From Cliona cf. orientalis (Eukaryota; Porifera; Demospongiae; Clionaida; Clionaidae), in contig OZ005689.1 of assembly GCA_963930775.1 (NCBI GenBank), positions 22,566,058-22,630,057 of the forward strand: a stretch of 64,000 nucleotides of DNA. The letters are read 5' to 3'. The position numbers and the translations under genes were made by a program. The number at the start of each line of letters is the position of its first letter. Within the stretch, counting starts at the first letter, position 1. Positions 9,393 through 32,904 of this stretch are shown here, in pieces. Under the pieces are notes generated by a model. The model worked only from the letters and a program-made list of their open reading frames with translations, was not told the DNA's origin and did no database searches.

Positions 9393-9489
9393 ATATAAAA
9401 ATAATGCATTAAGTTTGTAGGTAACTAAATACACCAAATCGTTTACAACCGTATTCAACTAACCTTAGTGAGTCGTACTCTCGAATTGG

Positions 9490-11967
9490 GTGTGCACTGG
9501 CTCGTGGTCACCCAGAATTGTCAAAGCAGTCTTAGGTCATCCGGAATTGCAGCAGATCACCATCACCAAGGTGACAGAGCTGCTTAATACAGAATGCTCC
9601 AGTCTGTTCAAGAAGGATATTGCCACTCCATCCCCTTTCCGAAAGATGGCCTTTGATGAAATGACTCAGTTCAATTGGAGTCTTCTGATTGAGGATCTTC
9701 AGGCAAAAGAACCAATTCTCTTCAAAATGCTATACACTTGTCGGTCACAGCGATAAGAGAAATCACACAAAACGTGATGCTGCTCACCATCCAGCCATAT
9801 GCATGACTTTAGCCACCCTCCTGAAAGACAGAAATAGGGAAATGGGAGGATTACAGACAATAGTATCACTCCTATTGTTTAAACCGTGTGTGAACAAACA
9901 GGTACATGTATGCTCGATAGCCATTGCATGAACAGATGCATAACCTAGCGGAGAGTGTGTGAATGTATGTGCATATGATTGAGCATAGGGGATGGATGTG
10001 TGTATGTGTATGTACATGTAATGTACATGTACATGCATGAGTGTGCATGTGTATGTGACTATGACTGTAGAGATTGATAATTATTATAAGATCACACAAT
10101 GAGGTAGAAAACGAGAGATCAGAAAATCTCATCAAGCATTCATCATCCACGCACATCACTCTCAATGACGTACTTTGTAGTTCCTGCTTGTGTTTCATAG
10201 CTACATGTAATGCATACATCTACACTCATGCACGCACGCATGCACACACTATATATATTGAAAAATAAGCTCAACTAAACCATCTTGTTGTCCAGCAATT
10301 GAGTGAGCTACAAAAGATGCCTCTGATAGAGTGGCTCAAAGAGGGTGCTCCAGTCAAGTACATCAGTGATAATGTCAAACAAAAGAAAGTTTGAGATATT
10401 CGCAGTGACCACCAATCTAAAATGCACATGTATTCAATCTTGGTTTCTAAAGGGAGAGTTTCTCTGCCGGAGTGATATAGAAGCTATATCACCGTGCCAA
10501 CTTGACAAATTAAAGTCCATGTCACAAGCTACATTCCTACCAAGCAAGGAAGACGTACTAGTGCTTAGAGGTCACTTAAGATATTAGTTGCTCACATACT
10601 AAGCAAGTATATTACATGTCTAGCACCCCTATCAAAGCAAGTTCCACAACATGTAAGCCATGAGAATATGGAAAGCATGGCTCGTAAATCGGAAGTGCTT
10701 TTTTGTGGATGTCTTAATGAAAAACGAGGCAGTACATGCAGACATGGTTGACATAATGGAGTACATGCAAGATCGTCTTGGAGAAGAATTTTCAACATGT
10801 GAAGTGCTATCGGGAGGTGATCAGCATACCTGTGAACGGCAAGCAAATGCTCAGTGACACCGGATGGATGGTGATTCAACAAAAGACTGTCTACAGCTGC
10901 TTGAGCCAATGTGCGAGGATTGGCATGCACTGATGTGCTTCATGAAGGTAAAGTATTGTGTGCTGAAACATTATCTGCATAAGAAAGACAGGTGCATGTA
11001 CATATATAATAATTAAGTAAAAATAGCACATACACAAATATTATAAACAATGTCATGTATTACATCATTGGCAGGTTATTTGAAAGATGTTTGAATCGTC
11101 ATCGAAAGATCACGGTACTTTTTGGCATTTCTGTAGCTTGCTTTATTGGTTGCCTTCAGTCACGGACCCTAAGAAGGATATGAATGCCTGTACTGATGTG
11201 CTATTTACAGTGCGTAAGGCCCATTATGTAGCAGCTGCATGCATAGAGCTAGGGATTGAAAGCCCTAATAGCCCACAACCAGACACCACCCCAGACTTTA
11301 CGAGAATGCCAGCAAGAGAAAGATATTCATTCATAATGAAACTCCCCAAAGAGGTTCTGGAGAGGTGTAGAGTAGTTGAGGAGACATTAATTGGAACAGC
11401 AGTAAAAGATACTAAGGATGTTGTACAAAATTATGCACGTGTATTTTGCCACCACACAACACTGGCACTCGAATTTACAAACGCATGGTCACTGGGAGCT
11501 GGACCTAGAATCTGCCGATGTTGGAAATTTATGATGTTGCATTTTCAATCAACGGGTCACACCAAATATGCCTAGGAAGCACTGTGTCAACAATATCAAT
11601 TAGTAACCCTACCACCACATCTATCATACCAACTGATGTGGGGAAGATTCATCAATACACGTGGAGGGATTGGAAAGAATATTCATTGCGATTTACACAA
11701 TGAGCATCCAAACAAACTGTTTAAGGAAATATTCAATAATGTGGGTGCCAACACATCAGAAGCTGCAATCACAAGAGCAGCAAGGTCGGCAACAGCACTA
11801 CAATAGATATCGACCAACTTCGACAAGAAAACTGGAGTACCTGTTACTAGTAGTGCACATTCAATGCTCAACGACGTAAAGGATATCAACAGTGCGGTAT
11901 CAATAATTATTAAGAAAATATTTGATACACAAAAGGGAAGGATGCACTCATTCAAATTTTTTTTCAT
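9490..11967 (+). pseudogene. DUF6589 gene 1, main body, broken
   Basis: Successive plus-strand pieces match the DUF6589 family: LGHPELQQITITKVTELLNT (9530); PAICMTLATLLKDRNREMGG (9800); MPLIEWLKEGAPVKYISDNV (10320); LSKQVPQHVSHENMESMARK (10630); VLMKNEAVHADMVDIMEYMQ and LSGGDQHTCERQ (10720-10840); a DHGTFWHF..TDPKKDMNACTDVLF block at 11100-11210; AVKDTKDVVQNYARVFCHHT (11400); then NEHPNKLF (about 11715). The GDQ motif and NEHxN are the best conserved points. Frame changes occur near 9735, 10650 and 11570, and there is a TGA near 10393. The stop lies about 240 bp from the stop of the convergent RecQ gene. The molecular role of DUF6589 is not established to my knowledge; a transposase role is inferred from the element structure. 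Confidence 0.8.
9954..10067 (+). repeat. TGTATG/TACATG-rich microsatellite
   Basis: An imperfect run of TGTATG, TGTACATG and GTGTGC words inside an apparent intron of DUF6589 gene 1. The long minus-strand ORFs here (His/Thr-rich) are products of the repeat, not genes. Confidence 0.7.
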
Positions 11968-12204
11968 CTAATCTATTACATAATCTAGACAGGGAAAAAA
12001 ATTAAATTGGATTGCCACTAAGCAAAAACAGAATCAAACATAAGTACGCAGTTGGAGAGGGTGATCAATCTGATTCTGAAGCAAGCGTTTTGAAAGTGAT
12101 GAGGACAACAATAATGAACATATTGAGACAGAAATTTTATCATTCATTTAGGACCATATTAATTTTAGTGAATTGATTTTTATGAAACAACAGTCATTCT
12201 TGAC

Positions 12205-13510
12205 TCAATGCTTGATATGCAGCAGCACATACATCACAACAGAGTATGGGGTCTTGTTCAGCTGCACAAATGGAAGAACTTGCATCAAAGTAGCTGCACA
12301 AATGGAAGAACTTGCATCAAAGTACCTCAAAAGCTGATAGTGACGGCACTCGTGTATTTTCAAGGAAGTGTCTAACGGCAGCAATCTCTGCATTAGTTGG
12401 ATTACCAAGATTTTTCCTCAAGGGAGCATCTGCGGGTATCCAATATATAACAGACTTTGCCAGTTCACCTGATCGCCCAGCTCGGCCACATTCCTTCAAT
12501 ACTGCTAGGGGCACCATAGTGCCTAGCGCGACAATACAAAATACAACTTGTTCTACTCCATTTGCATCTACCATACTCTTCAGTATCACATCCTTGTTGT
12601 GTGACGGAGATTTGGCATGATACATTCCATGCAGTCTATTGTCACTGATGTGTTCAGCATTTTCTGGGTAATAGCTACCACTATCGCCTAACTCGTAGCA
12701 AAATGAGCATACAAATTTGCACAAGTATTCAAGGAACGAAGATAAAATTAATGAGAACCCTCTGTGCCTTATATTTATTTGCCCTTAAGTCATGTACAAC
12801 AGGAGCCATATCAACCTCTATGCTTGTGCGGGGTCTGGCCTCAAAATATAATATAATATTATTAGAACAGTTTGGTGATATATGTACTAACTTACTATCA
12901 CATATTTCAAGCTTCATAAGTACATCATGTCGAATTGCATGGGTGGCTGTTGCAGTGAAAATAACTATAGGTATACCAGAAGGAATCACAGCACGGAGTT
13001 TTCCTAGATTAGCATATACTGGATGTAAAGTTTTGCTCCTGCACGAGATAAATTAATGTAGGTGAACGTGGAAGTTACATGTACATGCATTTATATAGTG
13101 CATTAACAGATTCACATAATATACATGTACACACACACATGCACATACACATATTTACATAGTCACCAGATCCAAAGTCAGTCACTCGTACACACACACA
13201 CTGACAGGCACACGAGCTTTCATCAGACTTACCACTTGGATACACAGTGAGCTTCATCCACAGCTACGGCAACGATATGGTTGTGAAGTGGAGCTTCGGA
13301 CAATTTATCCTTCCATTTTCTTTCACCTATCACAGCCTCAGGAGCGGCGAACAGTAGGCTGCACATGCCCATACGTTGTTCAGAGACCAACAGCTTCTTA
13401 TATATTTAGCGCTGACAACTCATGATGGCTGCTGACACTCCTCGAGACATCAGGCTGGATACCTGGTCGATCATGAGTGATACCAAAGGCGAAACAACTA
13501 CCACCACTAA
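12205..13510 (-). pseudogene. RecQ-like helicase gene 1, middle and C-terminal part
   Basis: Read on the minus strand: VSPLVSLMIDQVSSLMSRG (about 13490, motif Ia region); FAAPEAVIGERKWKDKLSEA and VAVDEAHC, the DEAH-type motif II (13345-13245); PIVIFTATATHAIRHDVLMK, motif III (about 12970); RTSIEVDMAPVVHDLRANKY (12815); SKDMVD-like KDVILKSMVDANGV (12590); and ECGRAGRSGEL, motif VI (about 12490); then HECRHYQLLRYFDAS near the C-terminus (about 12350). Frames change several times and the segment between motifs V and VI is shortened. The N-terminal part is displaced to 20130-20366 by a hAT insertion. Partner gene: convergent DUF6589 gene 1. Confidence 0.85.
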
Positions 13511-14114: not shown

Positions 14115-14730
14115 TTATACTGTTTCTGCAATTGCAGAGGATACATGAAATAGCATGGAGCTAGTACAAAGCATGTAACCCTAGTATTGGTACAATTAAC
14201 TAGTTAGAAACATACAGTAAACTATAATAACTAAAGACATAAAGCACTTCTGAAAGAGGATAGAGATGTGTTTGATGCAGTTTCAAATGATAATGAGTTC
14301 CAAGCAGTAATTGCACTTGGGAAGAATGAGTTATGGTATTGTGAGGAATGAGTTTGGAGAGGAATAAGTGCACGGGCATGAACAGACCTGCTAGGATAAC
14401 AGAGTTGCCTGGCTTGGATTGGGGCATCAGGGAAAAAAGTAAAGTGATTGACCATGTTGAATAAATTACACAGTTTAGTTTGCTGCCTCCTGGCTTGCAG
14501 GGATGGGAGGTGGGTCTTTACTAGCAAGTCACTGTAGTTTGTGTCCCAACTTTTTGTGCAAACTCTCAACGCAAATTTTTGCACATCCTCCAGGAGAGAT
14601 ATATCTTTTTTGAGAAATGGGTCCCAAGCAGCAGTTGCGTACTCTAAATGTGGTCTGATAAAAGAGGTATATAGCCTGAGGAGGGTATCTGGAGAAGAGT
14701 GTTTATAAAAGCGCCTATACAGGATACCAA
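14115..14730 (-). mobile_element. Non-LTR retrotransposon, 5'-truncated 3' end
   Basis: The minus-strand frame gives the C-terminal region that follows reverse transcriptase in CR1/L2/Jockey-like elements: LYTSFIRPHLEYATAAWDPF, LLEDVQKFALRVCTKSWDTN, SLQARRQQTKLCNLFNMVNH and AITAWNSLSFETA, stopping at 14231. About 115 bp of 3' UTR follow, ending GCAGAAACAGTATAAATTAA. The 5' side breaks into hAT coding sequence near 14730-14740, as usual for incomplete reverse transcription. The catalytic RT domain is absent. Confidence 0.85.
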
Positions 14731-15277
14731 TTAATTCTTCTGGTACCACTGGCCTCAAATTCACGAGCAACTTCAGGAATGTCGATTTCTGTGTCATGAT
14801 GAATGTGGAGTAAAGCTAGACCTGACAGGCGTGTTTCTGACATATTACTACGCAAATAAGTCTTTAGTCGTCGAAGACCACTAAATGACCTCTGCTGTTG
14901 CTGTCAACACTGGCATGGTTAACAGTACCTTCAAGATAGCATGTATATTGGGAAACATGAATGATGCAAATACTGCTTCCTGAAGATTTTCCGCTTTCAC
15001 AGCACCAGATCCAATAGCATGTTTCCAGCCTTCTAGCTCTACATCACACTGAGGAATGAGCGAGTCGTACTCCTTGATATCCTGCCATGATTCAGTGGTT
15101 AATTTGGATATGTGTGAAGGTAAAAGATGTTGAGGTTTCAAATATGGCATTGGTTTACACAATCTGTCTTGTAGTTCAGCAATAAGTTGATCTATAAAGG
15201 GATAAAACAAGTTTATACGCCAGTAGTCTTCAACTGATTGTGCAGGTGTGTTGGATCGATGAATCTGACGGCCTGTA

Positions 15278-23101: not shown

Positions 23102-23485
23102 TAGCCTCGTGCCCATCCCTATTCCCACCTTTTTTCAATGTTGCACGCAGAAAAGGGGGAAGGTCTGGTCGATTTGGTGATGTCAGGATGATGTCACATG
23201 GACGTGGTTTGAACTGACCTGGTCGTGGTCTGGACTTCCTGGTTACCTCGCGCTTGCTGCCCACGCATGCACGCGTGCGTGCGCTAGCGCTTCAGCGCGA
23301 GCGCGTGCATAAGTATAAGCATGCGTGGGCAGCAAGCGCGAGGTAACCAGGAAGTCCAGACCACGACCAGGTCAGTTCAAATCACGTCCATGTGACATCA
23401 TCCTGACATCACCAAATCGACCAGACCTTCCCCCTTTTCTGCGTGCAACATTGAAAAGGTGGGAATAGGGATGGGCACGAGGCTA
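23102..23485. mobile_element. Foldback MITE of the DUF6589/RecQ family
   Basis: A 384-bp near-perfect hairpin: two arms of about 170 bp (TAGCCTCGTGCCCATCCC outward tips) around a GC-rich centre with GCGCGC words. It is flanked by TACACGCA at 23094-23101 and 23486-23493. Its arms share TCAATGTT.CACGCAGAAAA and the GGGGGA.GG.CTGGT block with the 86-bp ends of the element that begins 695 bp downstream, so it is a non-autonomous relative. Confidence 0.85.
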
Positions 23486-24068: not shown

Positions 24069-24179
24069 ACATCTGTATGTTAGGCTTAGAAATATTGGCT
24101 GAACCTTTACGATTCAACGCAGTACCAGGTTTTTTCCCAACATTGTTTGAAAGCCCATGAGTCAGGACAGCTGTATACC

Positions 24180-24265
24180 TAGCCTCGTCCCCAGGCCACT
24201 CCCACGTTTTCAATGTTACACGCAGAAAAGGGGGAGGGCCTGGTACGCGATCTCACGTGAGTGAC
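24180..24265 (+). repeat. Left terminal inverted repeat
   Basis: Begins TAGCCTCGTCCCCAGGCC. It pairs with 32777-32862 over 86 bp, the single mismatch being G/A in TACGC[G/A]ATC. After this point (ATCGCGCG versus GTCACAAC) similarity ends. Confidence 0.95.
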
Positions 24266-24798
24266 ATCGCGCGTAGAGAGAACTTAATTGTGTGTGGGCA
24301 CAACGTTTGATGCTAAACCGCCAACCCATGCATTACTATCATCATGCACACACAACCATACAGGACCATACCTGGCCAAGATTTGAAGTTGAAAGAGCTC
24401 CAGCTAGCGTCACTGAACTCAGACTGCCATTTCAGTCATTGTACTCTGGGCAGCTACACATCATCATCCAGCTATAGCTATAACAATCTATGAGCTATGT
24501 AGGTACACGTAGCTAGAATTTATTGAAGCTATTCTGGTATCTATCATGCATAATTTGACTGAATAGATCTATCAATATTATAATAAAAAGTAACTACTTA
24601 TTTACCTGCAGTTAGCTGACTCACCGTACCGAGGCTCGAGGCTCTGCTTGGCAGGCCCATGCATGCTATCACTCGCCCTAACGCTATATATAGCGTAGCT
24701 AACCGATTTTCAAGTTAACATCATGACCACTGTTGCTGCCAAGTCATCATTGTAATCTAAAAATAGCAATCACTATTCCATCATGACATTGGAAGAAT

Positions 24799-27700
24799 AT
24801 GGAATCTGACGAAACTAGGTGGTTGAAAAAGAGGTATCGACCTACTCCAACGGACGGGGAAGTACAAAATGTAAAGAAAATCAAGTTCGAACATATTTGG
24901 AAAGATATGATGGCTCAATTTCCATCAAAAAATCTCAGCAACTACCAAGTATCACAGGCTATTACCGCAGCATTTCCAAATACGTCTAGTCGCTTGAGAA
25001 CACACAGTAGGACAAAACATATTTTTGGGTTAGAAGAGATCACAGACACATCATGTTCTTCCTCTGATGATTTGGAAGCTGAGAATCGACGACTGAGGCT
25101 CCAAATTGATGATCAACAGGTCAGGCTCCAAGTGATGCAGAATCGAATAGACGAGTTAGAGAGGCAAGTTGCCCAACTGCAGGACCATGTTGCCTCTTCT
25201 GCACATTCACCTTGCTTGGAACCACAAATAAGGAGTTTATTATTATCTCAGAATGCAGCATATCATGGGCCAGACACCATCACTCATTTCAACGATTTTT
25301 CCATGGATCACGTGATTGCAGAGGTTAAGAATCAAGCTCCAGACGTGTGGCAGCTGCTGAATAATCTTGGCAACACTGGAAGGTTATCAGAAGATAACAA
25401 ACAGCATCAGCTTGCTCACTTGCGAATCATTTCTTGCTTGAGTACCCTTCTGAAGACCAGATCCCAGAAAATGCTAGGAATTCAACTACTTATCAGCCTT
25501 ATGCTGATTGCAAGAGCCACTAGTCGGAGGGTAGGTGCACTGGAATCTGCATGATATAAGATAGCAAACATGTATATTATTACAAGCATATTGTATGATT
25601 TGTACTAAAATTATATTACGACAGGCACTAACAGTACTTGGTCATGCTGGGATATGCCTTTCCTATACCACATCCTGGAAATATCTACTTCAATTGACAG
25701 CTGAAGCTCGGTATGATCATCTTGTACGTAGTGGTTTCTGGGTATGGATATTCGACAACGTCAATCTCCAACAAAAATCTGACACGAACGTGAAGGTAAA
25801 CATGTGCATGCAAACATGTACATGCATGTACATGTATGAAATTGTACATATACATGACATTGTGTTGATGATTATTCTGCATGTTTAACACCGACTCTAC
25901 TAGATTACAAGTATAAAAAACAATTAAATAAAATTGAAGGATGAAGTAGGGATGGCAGTGCCAAAAAGTACACAAACAAGGTTTGTAGGGATAACGTATC
26001 ACATTCACTATACATCCCTACGCTTGCTTTTCTCGATAATTAACGTCATACACTCCCGATTCAGTATGTAAAGTGTTACTATATTTTGATATTAATCCGT
26101 GTATTGATTTTCCATTCCTGCATGCATATGCCCCATATATAATACGTGTGTGCACGGCTACTCAAAAAGCAAGCGTAGGGATGTATAGTGAATGTGATAC
26201 GTTATCCCTACAAACCTTGTTTGTGTACTTTTTGGCACTGCCATCCCTACTTCATCCTTCAATTTTATTTAATTGTTTTTTATACTTGTTGCTGTTCTTT
26301 TTTTAGTGCCCCCAGGGTATTTCATGCATGATAGTCATTAATTTTCATCAATGCCACCTAGATTACTAATCCCGTGGAGACAGAGGCTGGGCTTGAGACT
26401 CACCATGGTGACCAGATATTATGGTTTGCCTATTCATCATTATAAAATGCATGGAACCAGCTTCTGGACCTAGCTATATCCAACTGTGCTTTAACAATAA
26501 TGTATTATTACAATATTATAGGGAATTAAGCAGGTACATCACTGATTCAGCATATCTGTGCGATCCTAGCCTGTGAGTCAGGTAGCTACAAACACACCGT
26601 GAGTTCAAACTTGAATACTCCTGTAAGTTCAAATCCCAGGCCGTCTTTTGATAGCTAGCTAGGACGTCTTCTTTTACAGTACACACTATTGAACACGCAT
26701 CAGTGGGGTTCTCGAGACAACTCGGGTAACCAGTGACCTGCGATTGAAGCCATGCCCCTCGTTACCTCGATCCTGAAGCTGGCTAGATCGGCAAACTTGA
26801 AGGCTGTTTAGAACCAAGTAGCGACGAAAACCTTCCGTTTCGGGAGCGTATTTTATAGGCCAGTAAGTGTACTGTTGGTAATAGCCACCATAATCGACAG
26901 TTCACTGAGCTGATCAGCTGAGCGCTTGAGCAGGTCCTGGATCAATCGTGGATGCGCGGGCGCATGCGCGCCACTGACATCGGTCACATGACTTCACCAT
27001 GGCAACACCTTATGAGCATGCGCATTATATGACAAAATGGCTAATCGGACACACCCACTCGCAAAATGCCCTGTACACACCCACAATTAAATCGCTGTCC
27101 TGATAACACAAAACGAGCGTGCCACAGACGTGCGCGCTCCAAAATGGAGTGGATTTATACTCGAACTAAGGTGAGCGGTCATGGTAGTCTTGAGGTAGCC
27201 CAAGAAAACAGAAAGAAAGAAAGAAAGAAAGAAGAAAGAATGAGAAAAGGCTATTTTTTTTAACATCTGGTTCTGACATATACAATTGAGTTGATGAATG
27301 GTCTTGGTCTTGTTAGATCGATAATTTGCTGTAGATTCTGATTTTGACACTTAGAAATCTCACAGAGTTACCTGTTTTGAGATATTTGGATGTTTGTAAT
27401 GTATTATATATATGGAGTATCCGTGCCATCCCTACTTATAGAGTCTACCGACTCTATGATAAGTACACGCAAGATGTATACATGTATTATCGATACTTGC
27501 ATAAAATGCACACTAACCTACACATACACATACTAACTACATTGCATTATGCATTGTAGACCGTCACTCAACGATGATGAATACCACTTCAAGACTAGCT
27601 GTCTGTATGCACCATCTCCCAGAAAATGTTGATTGGAATGATACAACACCACAGTGTAGTTTAGATTCACTCACCATCAATGATTTCATGCTATCCGAGT

Positions 27701-28863
27701 CTGAAGCTGAAGCGTTCAAACAGAGAGCCATCCTATACACAGCTCAGTATCTGGTTAAGGAGTTCAAGAGCCTTGGTAACCTGCAAAAGTTCCTCCCACT
27801 ACAGTCCCAAATCCATCCTGTTGTGAAGACAGAATTTGTTCCCATGAAAGTGCTCTTCAAGGATGAGAAGTACACCTCGGAGACCATTGATATCCTTTGC
27901 TCTTTGATCAAGGATGCAGATCTGAAAACAATCAGGTTTGAATTTTGCACAGGGAAAAAAGCAATTCAATTAGTTGGCATAATGCAGATAGTAGTGGGAG
28001 ATCAGCTGACTCTAAAGAATATTCGAGCTAGTAAGCTGTGGAGACAAGCAGAAGTTGAGAGCCACAATAGACTATCATGGGTCAATGAAGTACCAGGTAT
28101 TATAAATAGTACACAAACGTATTAAGGTGCCAACTCACAAAATTATGCGGGTGATTTTCACTTCTTATGGGAGTGTCTCCGTGTTGTCTTCACCATGTTC
28201 TGGGGGGCTCCAAATCAAACAGGATCATTGTGCCATCTCCGGGAGCTAGCGCGGCGTACTCTAGTTGACAAGGGTGTGAAGGTGTTCAATGTCGGCAATG
28301 AGTTCCTACTGCACGCTTTCAAGGCTCATTTCACGGCCAGCATTCTCACACTATTGGGCATTAGCAGCACAGAGGATGATGTTCAACACGGACCTACAAA
28401 GGAGTGGCTACTCGCCAAATCAGAAGAAATACTAAACAAGTGCATTGCACATGAAGTGGGTACTGATCCAGTTTACAATCTACATCGTCTGTTCATGCAC
28501 CATGCATATCTATATGTTGATCTGAGGGAAGCAATCAGATGGGAGAATGGGCCAGTAATTGTTCAACACTGGAAATCATGCATACCACTATTTTTGGCCA
28601 CTGGATGCAAAAACTATGCATGCGAAGCTGTCTATCACATCTCCAACTTGACAGCAAGCTTCCCAAAACATGTCGTATGTTGCCATTCATAACCGCACTG
28701 TCAACACCAGTGGGAAGCCAGGTAAAGGAAACCAATGGACCAACTCATTGAACAGAACAATCTGTAGGGTATTTAAAAAGGCACTGCGTTCAGGAGGTGG
28801 GTAACTCACCCCAAAACACATCGAAGACGTATCGATGGCTGTGTTTTTCTTCCTAGAGGCTTA
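24799..28863 (+). pseudogene. DUF6589 gene 2, nearly complete
   Basis: Exon 1 from ATG 24799 (MESDETRWLKKRYRPTPTDG) has a basic, DNA-binding-like start, a coiled coil (residues about 85-130: LEAENRRLRLQIDDQQVRLQ) and the family block VWQLLNNLGNTG..LLISLMLIARATSRR (donor at 25531). Exon 2 (25625-25795): LTVLGHAGICLSYTTSWKYL, FWVWIFDNVNLQQ. After an intron holding a hairpin MITE, exon 3 (from 27560): MHHLPENVDWNDTTPQCSLD and on to the GDQ block VVGDQLTLKNIR (about 28000), then DFHFLWECLRVVFTMFWGAP (28150) and LRELARRTLVDKGV. A one-base frameshift near 28672 separates SFPKH from SYVAIHNRTVNTSGKPGKG, followed by a stop (28802). Acidic residues in IFDN and VGDQ are candidate metal ligands (inference). 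Confidence 0.85.
25907..26289. mobile_element. Perfect hairpin MITE in a DUF6589 intron
   Basis: The arms 25907-26031 and 26165-26289 are identical inverted copies over 125 bp with a 133-bp loop. It lies in the intron between exons 2 and 3 of DUF6589 gene 2. The lack of any mismatch implies recent insertion or arm conversion. No clear target duplication was seen next to the ACAAGT tips. Confidence 0.85.
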
Positions 28864-29311
28864 AAAGAAAGCAGATCAAGCGTTTAGTGTTGCACCCCAG
28901 ACTACTGCACATACCACCGTCGACTCACGAAAGGATGTCGCATTGATGTCAAAACGTCTCATTGAGTCAGCCATAACAACACTGGATAATGAGCGGCAAA
29001 CACCTCCATTTGTAGATCCGGCAACAACATGTTGGAAGAAATTGACAACCACAACTATTGTACCTATAACATTCGCTCACTTAATATTAATGTCAATGAT
29101 GTCATAAAAATTAATGCTATATTCATCGGATAATACGAGATCTTTTTGTACTTGGCAATTCTGAAAGTACATCTATAATTATTCTAAAAAATGAGGGTCT
29201 AAGTTCAGGCCGCAATGCAAATAACTGAAGGTCATCTTCAAGTTTGACAAACTTGGCTTGAGAGCAGATATGATCGATCAGACTGTCACTACAGACAATA
29301 TCTGGACCAAA

Positions 29312-29859
29312 TACCGTAAAGTCTGGTTAATAAGCGCACATGCTTATTAAGCGCATATTTTTTAATAAGCGCATGCTTCCTTCTTGTTATTAAGTATTGT
29401 CTAATAAGCGCATGCGTCCAAAAAAGATGACAGTAATATTCACCGTTCGAGCAAGAGTTCTCCGTGTTCTACATGGTTAGGGTTAGATCTTGTTTACTAA
29501 CCTAGTTTCGGATAGCCAGCTGCACGAGATCGGTTTTACTCAACACTGAGAGGTTCCACTGAGATGGGTTCGGACTCTTGACCTTGACTTAGAAGCGAGT
29601 CTCGCCAAAGAAATCTGCTATTTTTCCGGTTTTCTTCCAGCGATGGCTTCCGATCATACTCCTATGAACTATTCCAGAGCTTACTCCAAGAATCGCTGTA
29701 TTCATCACTTGCTAGCTTTGTGATTGAGCGCTCGAACGTGCTGGCAGAGGGCGGGGCCAAAACATCACTCTCTATTAAGCGCACATCGTCTAATAGGCGC
29801 ATGTTTCCTTACCACCGAGAGTGATAAGCGCATGCGCTTATTAACCAGACGTTACGGTA
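29312..29859. mobile_element. TACCGTA MITE (pogo-like ends)
   Basis: About 548 bp including flanking TA on both sides. Ends: CCGTAAAGTCTGGTTAATAA and TTATTAACCAGACGTTACGG. It is built of repeated TTAATAAGCGCATGC words. TA flanks and end style suggest mobilisation by a pogo/mariner-type transposase (inference). A truncated relative is at 396-600. It lies between the convergent DUF6589 and RecQ genes. Confidence 0.78.
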
Positions 29860-29899
29860 TTTGGAAAGCTGTATGGCATTTCAACTATTTTTCCCTCTC

Positions 29900-32276
29900 T
29901 AATTGAAGAGACTGCTTCGGCTTTTTCATCGTGTCTTCTGTTATATTTTTATGTTCAACCGTCCTTTTTCGCCCAAGTTTGGTCACGGGAGGAAATGATT
30001 CAAACTGCAGTCTTGAGGATAGACCACGCAACACCACATGAGTCACAACAGCACGTGTTTCCTTGTTCTCTGTCCTTACTGCCAAGAGCTTCAAGCATTT
30101 TTTGCCTTCTACAGTTTTGTGTATCAACACAAATCTGCTGAACAGCTGGATCAATTTTACACCCTTTACGAGTGCTATAAAAGATTTGTGCTCTAGCTTG
30201 ACCCCCTCCTCTTCCAGCACGACCACAGAGCTAATCAAGATAACACATTTGTACTTCTACATAGATGGTTACCATGTACGAAACTACCTGATGTAACTGG
30301 TTGATACTACTAGGAGCGTAGGAGCGCCATACATAATCACAAGCTCTATGTCCGGAATATCCATACCCTAACACAGTCAGTCATAATATGTGACCGGATT
30401 TGAGAAAACCCTCCGTATGGGATCCGCGCGCGATTCGCGCAATGTGCGTTTTTAGTAGCTCAGGTCTGAATTTGTCAAAGACCAGATGTTGTCATATACA
30501 TGTCGAACAACCCTTCTTCTAACTGTTGCCGTCTTCTACGGAGGCTAGTCGTGCTATACGAAGGCGAAATAAGCCTTCATTTTGACCCACCTAGTCGGCA
30601 CAGCCACCGTACACGGAGCCCGTTGCTATGGGCGATAATTAGAATTCTCTATCTAGATACAGCTAGATTCATCGATCTACTGTACGTTCGCTTACCTCTT
30701 TAGCTTCTTGGGCATCTAAGAACAATCGCCTGTCCTTGTCAACAACGAAATTCAACTCTTGCTCGATCTTTACGTTCATTTCGAACCGCTCCGCCCAGGT
30801 CCATTTAATTGATTTCCGGGTCACGCGTAGTATGCGGAAACGCCATACGCGTGCATAGCAACGCCTTTAGACCGTAATTTCTCGATTATTGGGGGTGTGG
30901 CGCGATCACAAACAAAGCGCTGTATCTCCACAACGAAGCGCGCGATCGGCCTAAGACTTGAACGCGGGTTAGCTTTATGGTAGAGCTTATCAACCATGCA
31001 TCAAACTCAATTTTCTGAAAAAATCCCATACGGAGGGTTTTCCCAAATCCGGTCACATATTATTATGCACATGCGAATACAGCTTCTGTAACATACCATG
31101 CCAAAGGCAATGGTGGACACAAGGCAGCGTATTATACTACTCTTAAAATATGTAACACATAGAGCCTTAGTGGAAGCAGCCATGGAGGCATGGAACATTC
31201 CAACAAACTTCTTCTTTGAGGCATGCTCAGATAACATCCTATAAACACGACAAACAGTATTCTTTGTTGGCGCAAACACAACTGTTTTTGGTATGTCACC
31301 AGGGGATCTCTAACTGGATAAGCAGGAGACTAGACCACTGAGATCTTTCTGCATTATTATAACAATACTGGAAATTATTGGTCTATGTGACTTACTATAC
31401 TTACATCAAGGGATTTTATTCCACTAGTGGAGAAAAAGATATTGGGACGGTTGAGACTTTGCGAGATGACGACAGGCTCACTCATGCTCAGTGAACCAAT
31501 AACGGAAGACTGAGTGTCACTGCTAGCAGTGACTGTTAAGGCCCTGATGGGTGCATTGCACAGAGCACGCAGACCTCCAATGGAACTAAATGCTGTCCGA
31601 AAATTAGCACCCCTACAAATGCAATCTAATATTAATTTTCAATTCAATACACAATTCCACAATTACCACTCGGGTATACAGTGGGCTTCATCAACTGCCA
31701 CGATCACAAGATGCGTTATCATGTGTGAAAAAGCAAAAATATTGCGCCATCGATGCGATGTTGCTAATTCAGGGGACATGAACACTGTAACAGTATTATG
31801 CACAATGTGTTAACGATCATTGGATGCATGATGTTTCTTACCAAATCGATATTTACCTCTTGTTATATCACATATAATATTATTGGTACTACCTTGGACA
31901 ACACGAATGGCTGAAATTCCAACATTTTGGATTATGCTCACCTGCTCCGAAGACAAATTTAGTGCTATATTATTCACTATGTTACCTGTTGGTCCATCAG
32001 AGTGTTGAGCGGACTGATCTCAACACCTATTGCATGCTCACTAATAGCTAATGGGGGGAGAAACATACACATTGATTTTCCAGAACCGGTAGCCATGCGG
32101 ACGAAAACATCCTTTCCATGCATGATTGGTAGCATTGCTTCCAGCTGTCCATCTCGGAAATCATCAAATTTAAAGTAAGAACGCAAGGCTCCATGCAGAC
32201 GCATCCTGGCTGTGCAGGTGTCATTAAATTTATGACAACAGCAATACTGCTTGTTTGTATCACTCATCCTGTCCAT
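29900..32276 (-). pseudogene. RecQ-like helicase gene 2, nearly complete
   Basis: From ATG 32276: SYFKFDDFRDGQLEAMLPIM (motif 0 Q region), VFVRMATGSGKSMCMFLPPL (Walker A), GVEISPLNTLMDQQ; later exons SEQVSIIQNVGISAIRVVQG (31915), LVIVAVDEAHCIPEW (motif II, about 31690), AFSSIGGLRALCNAPIRALT and SEPVVISQSLNRPNIFFSTS (31600-31430), VVFAPTKNTVCRVYRMLSEH and LVSTIAFGM (31280-31107), GMDIPDIELVIMYGAP (about 30350, motif V), and INQLHQLCGRAGRGGGQARA (motif VI, about 30225). An 8-bp tandem duplication TAGGAGCG (30311-30326) shifts the frame between motifs V and VI. The GTGACCGG element 30390-31056 sits inside the intron between the FGM and GMD exons, so it need not break the protein. Confidence 0.88.
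30390..31056 (+). mobile_element. GTGACCGG element, copy 2
   Basis: A 667-bp copy, same orientation as copy 1 and very similar, flanked by ATAT at 30386-30389 and 31057-31060. Ends: GTGACCGGATTTGAGAAAAC and GTTTTCCCAAATCCGGTCAC. Inserted in a RecQ intron. Confidence 0.88.
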
Positions 32277-32776
32277 AGGGTTTCACCAACAGAGAACCGT
32301 CAAAAAAGCGCGCCAATAGAGTTCAAAAAAACGTGTTTAATATTATGTGACATTTCCAGAACAGCTATAATAGCTATAGTTGAAGGTACATACAAGATCT
32401 ATCAGTGTATTCCGAATACAGGTACTGTCAGATAGCTTACCTTACCAAATCACACTCCCTCTTCTTGGGTTCAGACCTGTGAACGATGATCCTAGTAGTA
32501 GTAATACGAACTGCTGTCTCGGCTGCTGTAGAACGCGTTCAATGATTGTCATGGTCCTAAATCCGATCCAAGAGGTCCCATACATGTAGTTCCATAGTAA
32601 AATCGATCAGCTAGTCTCTCCTTTTTGGCCATAGAGCACACAGTATGAGGATCAAGGACCGTGGCAAACTCGCGGCAAAAATGACGCTAGTTAGCGCGAG
32701 CGCCCACTAAATCGTAGGCGGGACGTGACATACGTCACTTTGCGGTGCGCTTGCGCCCACGTTCATTTGTTGTGAC

Positions 32777-32862
32777 GTCACTCACGTGAGATTGCGTACC
32801 AGGCCCTCCCCCTTTTCTGCGTGTAACATTGAAAACGTGGGAGTGGCCTGGGGACGAGGCTA
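32777..32862 (-). repeat. Right terminal inverted repeat
   Basis: Reverse complement of 24180-24265 with one mismatch, ending GGCCTGGGGACGAGGCTA and followed directly by the 9-bp CTGTATACC copy at 32863-32871. Confidence 0.95.
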
Positions 32863-32904
32863 CTGTATACCAAGTGAGCTGTTTTAATCTTCTCTAGCCT
32901 TGAA

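Follow-up and report, generated by a model that had tools for sequence, protein, structure and literature searches.

A DNA transposon with a predicted DUF6589 transposase and a RecQ-like helicase, most likely of the AcademH type, in the genome of a clionaid sponge

Introduction

AcademH is the Academ lineage of DNA transposons that encode a helicase and duplicate 9 or 10 bp of the target, according to the available text of PMC10045372, and it was described by Kojima (2020, Mob DNA 11:15), by the title of that paper in animals and fungi. In AcademX, the sister lineage within the same superfamily, the duplications are of 3 or 4 bp and a nuclease stands where AcademH has the helicase (same text, PMC10045372). 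A RecQ helicase is also encoded by KolobokH, and in one Kolobok (Kolobok-1_CCri) it lies on the complementary strand, as given in the available part of PMC9587614.

The family DUF6589 (PF20231) is listed by Pfam as a family of unknown function. In the open literature searched, DUF6589 had no mention, PF20231 occurred only in an unrelated context, and Academ in combination with sponge led only to mollusc piRNA work; a link of DUF6589 to transposition may stand in papers beyond that literature.

Kolobok target duplications are TTAA, those of hAT and P elements 8 bp and those of Transib 5 bp, and hAT, P and Transib are not known to have a RecQ partner. MuDR/MULE elements make 9-bp duplications too and encode a MULE-type transposase domain, and Helitrons have neither target duplications nor inverted ends. 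The enzymes of hAT, P and RAG1/Transib contain a helical insertion ahead of the last acid. RecQ helicases are normally host repair genes.

Here the window, a stretch of 64,000 nucleotides of Cliona cf. orientalis (GenBank assembly GCA_963930775.1, contig OZ005689.1), was analysed. An earlier note on it had proposed a complete DNA transposon with a DUF6589 gene and a RecQ helicase gene.

Methods

The genome searched comprised 216.8 Mb in 149 contigs. The best candidates of each search were scored (40 of 846 for the end, 102 of 338 for PF20231, 136 of 280 for the second helicase query and 150 of 172 for one further search), and the counts obtained are therefore lower bounds. The homolog search with the joined transposase was done by scoring the 8,000 candidates sharing most words and gave 2 matches; it was repeated with an alignment as the query (26 matches) and with an exon of locus L065 as the query (431 matches, the best 120 of which were listed). 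For the alignment used to assess the conservation of acidic residues, the 120 listed matches of the L065 exon were included and 4 partial proteins were omitted.

Results

The terminal arms of the element (Table 1) are 89 nt long and paired at 87 of the 89 positions (98% complementary, two mismatches). The 86-bp inverted ends with one mismatch that had been noted earlier are the same arm, stopped just short of the second mismatch, and the perfect 9-bp duplication placed outside both ends was found as well.

Table 1. Positions in the window of the element, its ends, its genes and the stretches inserted into it
Feature	Position	Strand	Remarks
Left target-site duplication	24171-24179		9 bp, CTGTATACC
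DNA transposon	24180-32862		8,683 bp; inverted ends and 9-bp target duplication
Left terminal inverted repeat	24180-24268	+	Begins TAGCCTCG; subterminal inverted motif CCAGGCC ... GGCCTGG inside
Transposase exon 1	24799-25530	+	N-terminal region and coiled coil; GT donor at end, inferred
Transposase exon 2	25625-25795	+	First candidate catalytic Asp codon 25754-25756; frame shifted relative to L031
Stretch absent from L031	25914-27458		Within a transposase intron; a perfect 125-bp fold-back lies largely inside it
Transposase exon 3	27560-27935	+	Pfam DUF6589 begins; boundaries by eye (splice sites, sister copy); frame shifted relative to L031
Transposase exon 4	27988-28096	+	Second candidate catalytic Asp codon 28000-28002 (VVGDQ); boundaries by eye
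Transposase exon 5	28127-28692	+	Helical part of DUF6589; frame breaks near end
Transposase C-terminal part, remains	28693-29107	+	
Nested insertion	29307-29864		41-bp inverted ends, 90% complementary; 29314-29857 absent from L031
RecQ-like helicase gene	29888-32282	-	Several exons
Nested insertion	30383-31063		41-bp inverted ends, 98% complementary; 30390-31056 absent from L031; between two helicase exons
Helicase motif I	32093-32073	-	
Helicase motif DEAHC	31692-31678	-	
Helicase motif FGM	31111-31097	-	
Helicase motif GRAGRG	30224-30207	-	
Helicase zinc-binding CRR	30113-30093	-	
Right terminal inverted repeat	32774-32862	-	Counterpart of left arm
Right target-site duplication	32863-32871		9 bp, CTGTATACC, identical to left one

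By Pfam matches, two convergent genes lie inside, as described in the earlier note, with DUF6589 on the plus strand facing the RecQ-like helicase on the minus strand. PF20231 was matched in two plus-strand ORFs, at 27517-28125 (E 2.5e-14) and 28126-28692 (E 1.3e-18), and a coiled-coil exon lies upstream of them, within 24787-25554 (plus strand). An RFX-like N-terminal DNA-binding domain, considered by eye for the first 45 residues of P0005, was rejected, as no such match was given by Pfam in 7 proteins. In the helicase gene, the DEAD domain exceeded the cut-off (31977-32282, minus strand, E 5e-10), and Helicase_C (31007-31309, minus strand, 19.3 bits) and the RecQ zinc-binding domain (30003-30230, minus strand, 18.5 bits) were below their respective cut-offs of 23.5 and 25 bits. 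The joined helicase exon pieces of the sister copy L031 scored 225.3 bits against recQ_fam (cut-off 219.8), with WRN as their best relative in the PDB. The helicase shows RecQ features in the motifs ATGSGKS, DEAHC, FGM and GRAGRG and in the CRR stretch of the zinc-binding domain.

The left end of the element recurs at a minimum of 41 places in the genome (40 of the 846 candidates scored), which makes it more than a chance finding. Elements with paired window-type ends comprise five long copies (8,683, 6,568, 6,081, 4,344 and 5,968 bp) and 28 short ones, of which 24 measure 411-433 bp. Both genes are present and convergent in all five long copies, the 4,344-bp copy having DUF6589 in part only. 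Over 5,890 aligned columns, L031, on contig C2, matches the window copy with 96.8% identity. Two equal-scoring DUF6589 loci on contigs C5 and C15 led, independently of the window ends, to a second family. These two copies agree at 99.97% of 6,317 columns, carry perfect inverted ends of 104 bp, and differ in their flanks, each showing an exact 9-bp duplication (ATCATAGTG and GCGTGCGGC).

A search with the ends and a tally of the duplications had been suggested in the earlier note as a check. Among the 41 end pairs tallied (35 pairs, 33 of them with window-type ends, and six from contig C1; four end matches with no partner in the flank excluded; L019 and L037 not independent, as they share flanks), an exact 9-bp duplication was found in 31, a 9-bp duplication with one mismatch in four, an exact 8-bp duplication in two and none in three, and one pair has a 10-bp duplication with one mismatch, as judged by eye. 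The joined flanks of the window insertion, used as the query for an empty site in the genome, gave only the two flanks themselves.

The element is complete in structure, as had been claimed, but not in its coding parts, since the reading frame of the transposase is shifted at several points against that of L031, which is open there, and three probable later insertions are present. In the window copy, the frame break near the end of exon 5 puts the D..EH.N motif, which carries the third candidate acid, out of frame. Because of the shifts, the window copy probably makes no functional transposase. The three stretches, about 2.8 kb in total, have no counterpart in L031 and are therefore probably later insertions into the window copy; L031 in turn carries an additional stretch in its helicase gene. 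The intron insertion contains a perfect 125-bp inverted repeat (25907-26031 and 26165-26289, with a 133-bp loop), which may be a young fold-back element. The window copy has decayed, and its movement was not very recent. The earlier argument from almost identical ends to recent movement is weak, since the sister copy is 3.2% diverged and ends are alike even where the insides of elements hardly align; the identity of the ends is thus a poor clock here.

The PF20231 search of the genome gave at least 122 matches, merged into at least 102 loci, and 14 control genomes searched in the same way yielded no member of the family. With the helicase exon of the window as the sole query, a helicase match was located within 8 kb of 51 of the 102 DUF6589 loci, 50 of them convergent. 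After the second helicase query was added, a match was located within 5 kb at 98 of the 102 (within 3 kb at 97), and all 98 were convergent. By comparison, in 1,000 random placements, for which the sizes of contigs C9, C10, C13, C16 and C18 had to be guessed, linked loci averaged 1.6 and never exceeded 7, and therefore DUF6589 and RecQ are no chance pair. The earlier note had held that the two genes belong together and that finding them mostly apart would mean a chance capture; for DUF6589 the genes are not mostly apart. A capture of this kind, with RecQ or DUF6589 as a passenger on an element moved by another transposase, would agree with the usual role of RecQ as a host repair gene and with the reverse view of the linkage, in which DUF6589 is within 5 kb of 98 of the 179 merged helicase loci and is not matched near the other 81. 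It is nevertheless highly improbable, given the convergent linkage, the retention of the gene pair in families whose DNA is barely alignable, the transposase fold predicted for DUF6589 itself (see below), and the result that none of the eight ORFs of the element matched another transposase in Pfam over the cut-off. RecQ is most likely an element-encoded and nearly constant partner of the transposase.

One of the four DUF6589 loci outside the 98 is in this window (PF20231 at 11084-11575, plus strand, E 6.9e-10). At 9472-13052 a decayed DUF6589 gene (plus strand) faces a decayed RecQ-like helicase gene (minus strand, 12317-13052), representing a further family of the same kind. An ORF at 14231-14815 (minus strand) looks by eye like the C-terminal portion of a reverse transcriptase protein of the LINE type.

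An RNase H fold in DUF6589, another check suggested earlier, was seen as a predicted core in the AlphaFold models of two DUF6589 proteins, and among the best re-aligned PDB rows of these models the top 13 and the top 31, respectively, are all DDE recombinases. In sequence, DUF6589 had no relative in the PDB at E<=1, and no viral structure matched at E<=0.001. The probable last catalytic Glu is in a near-invariant D..EH.N motif of the protein alignment, its role being predicted; E480, in the helix after the fifth strand, was rejected as the third acid, being conserved in only 21 of 82. The Pfam match to DUF6589 begins downstream of the first candidate Asp, and DUF6589 may have been overlooked as a transposase for this reason. 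On the strength of the predicted fold, the D-D-E candidates, and the ends and 9-bp duplications around it in more than one family, DUF6589 is most likely a DDE transposase, as had been proposed.

The ends of the second family begin TAGTCTCG, and those of the window element TAGCCTCG. The end pattern TAGYCTCGNNNNCCAGRCC has 505 matches in the genome, outside which the window's own end falls because its spacer is one base shorter, and the reversed pattern used as the control has 0. At the tips of TAGYCTCGNNNNCCAGRCC the Y and R positions covary (459 T..A by subtraction, 39 C..G and 7 mixed), a tally that is not a count of events, as the copies share descent. On contig C1, to which the chance model was confined and for which the listing of TAGYCTCGNNNNCCAGRCC is apparently complete, six end pairs are 2 to 12 kb apart; five hold DUF6589 (random mean 0.03) and the sixth a helicase match.

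Thirteen of 24 ends, about eight types as grouped by eye, have CCAGRCC near position 12 and an exact inverted GGYCTGG starting at position 36 to 74, with the variable base changing in step on the two sides. In six of the 24, which are short palindromic elements, the partner of the motif is the opposite end, and the five with no exact inverted copy are four single ends and a 384-bp element of the window. The latter, at 23102-23485, is a palindromic non-autonomous element with related ends and an exact 8-bp duplication, TACACGCA. On single-strand folding, the window end and the second-family end each exceeded 200 of 200 shuffles (z -3.9 and -3.3, respectively). The subterminal inverted motif may serve as a fold of the end or as two sites for protein. 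This capacity to fold, together with the nearly constant helicase, would also suit a copying pathway run by the same transposase, in which one strand is peeled off by helicase-driven strand displacement and copied in; however, the element has an inverted end at each side and its duplications are regularly of 9 bp, as suits cut-and-paste, the predicted fold is closest to cut-and-paste enzymes, and we regard copying as rather unlikely.

Window-type ends are common to two subfamilies, one with the window copy and L031 and the other with L032, L033 and L034, each 96-97% identical in DNA internally. In a comparison of the two, the ends are 92.6-95.5% identical over 171-176 bp, but no more than 325 bp of the inside can be aligned, piecewise and at 68-74%, and identity is about 32-60% for most of the protein exons and 24% for one. 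The ends look far younger than the genes, which exchange or conversion of ends would explain, with strong constraint as the alternative.

Discussion

As a DNA transposon with a helicase and 9-bp duplications, the element resembles AcademH as far as the available description goes. Exact 9-bp duplications were obtained for most end pairs (31/41), within the 9 or 10 bp of AcademH; a helicase lies beside the transposase (recQ_fam, 225.3 bits; 98/102 loci); and a DDD/E transposase is indicated by the predicted fold and the conserved acids. Two uncommon features, the helicase and the 9 or 10-bp duplications, thus coincide with AcademH, and the undescribed superfamily proposed in the earlier note is probably not one. 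That a DUF6589 transposase with RecQ is nonetheless new and similar to AcademH only in duplication length and helicase would fit the absence of DUF6589 from the open literature searched and the lack of a Pfam function for it; against this coincidence we consider it quite improbable. AcademX, with its 3 or 4 bp and nuclease, differs from the 9 bp and RecQ found here, and no nuclease match over the cut-off was obtained in the eight ORFs.

KolobokH would also account for a RecQ helicase beside a DDE transposase, and in Kolobok-1_CCri, from the text available, the helicase is even on the complementary strand. The duplications here are 9 bp of unrelated sequence and not TTAA, which leaves this assignment a nearly negligible probability. 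MuDR/MULE was rejected because in Pfam searches up to E 5 the 7 relatives matched DUF6589 but not a MULE domain, hAT and P because only 2 of 41 end pairs have an exact 8-bp duplication, and Helitron because both inverted ends and duplications are present. The predicted RNase H core of DUF6589 is shared with hAT (Hermes), the P element and RAG1/Transib, as is the helical insertion predicted ahead of the last acid; these systems differ in their 8-, 8- and 5-bp duplications and in having no known RecQ partner, and DUF6589 stands apart from them in PDB sequence searches.

The element is therefore very probably a class II DNA transposon, most likely of the AcademH type, with a DUF6589 DDE transposase, a RecQ partner and 9-bp staggered joining; its mechanism is more secure than the AcademH label. 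In the scheme that we infer, which is of the cut-and-paste kind, the transposase would resemble hAT, P and RAG1 in having an RNase H catalytic core with an all-helical insertion ahead of the final acidic residue, and would bind the inverted ends of roughly 85-105 bp and excise the element. The element would then be joined to the target DNA at positions 9 bp apart, and repair fill-in would give the 9-bp duplications. The RecQ-like helicase, transcribed toward the transposase gene, would travel along as the nearly constant partner, and since it is kept with the transposase it is presumably useful to it. Its job would be, in the first place, the opening of strands at the ends or at the joined intermediate and, in the second, the repair of the excision gap.

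A more speculative extension, which we hold to be doubtful though worth stating, is that RecQ opens or refolds the covarying CCAGRCC ... GGYCTGG structure of the ends, with the result that the transposase makes its cuts at a spacing of 9 bp, and that the ends are also an exchangeable module, by the swapping or conversion of which one transposase lineage could take over the non-autonomous copies of another. The analysis newly adds an end signature, the covarying subterminal inverted motif and the near-identical ends on divergent elements.

With this analysis, a eukaryotic family for which Pfam still gives no function has a likely one, that of a predicted DDE transposase. With at least 102 DUF6589 loci in the source genome, annotated DUF6589 genes probably belong to transposons in many cases. 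Nearly identical copies, defined ends and an almost fixed helicase make this a system in which to ask why Academ and Kolobok acquired helicases, and whether target duplication length is set by the helicase.
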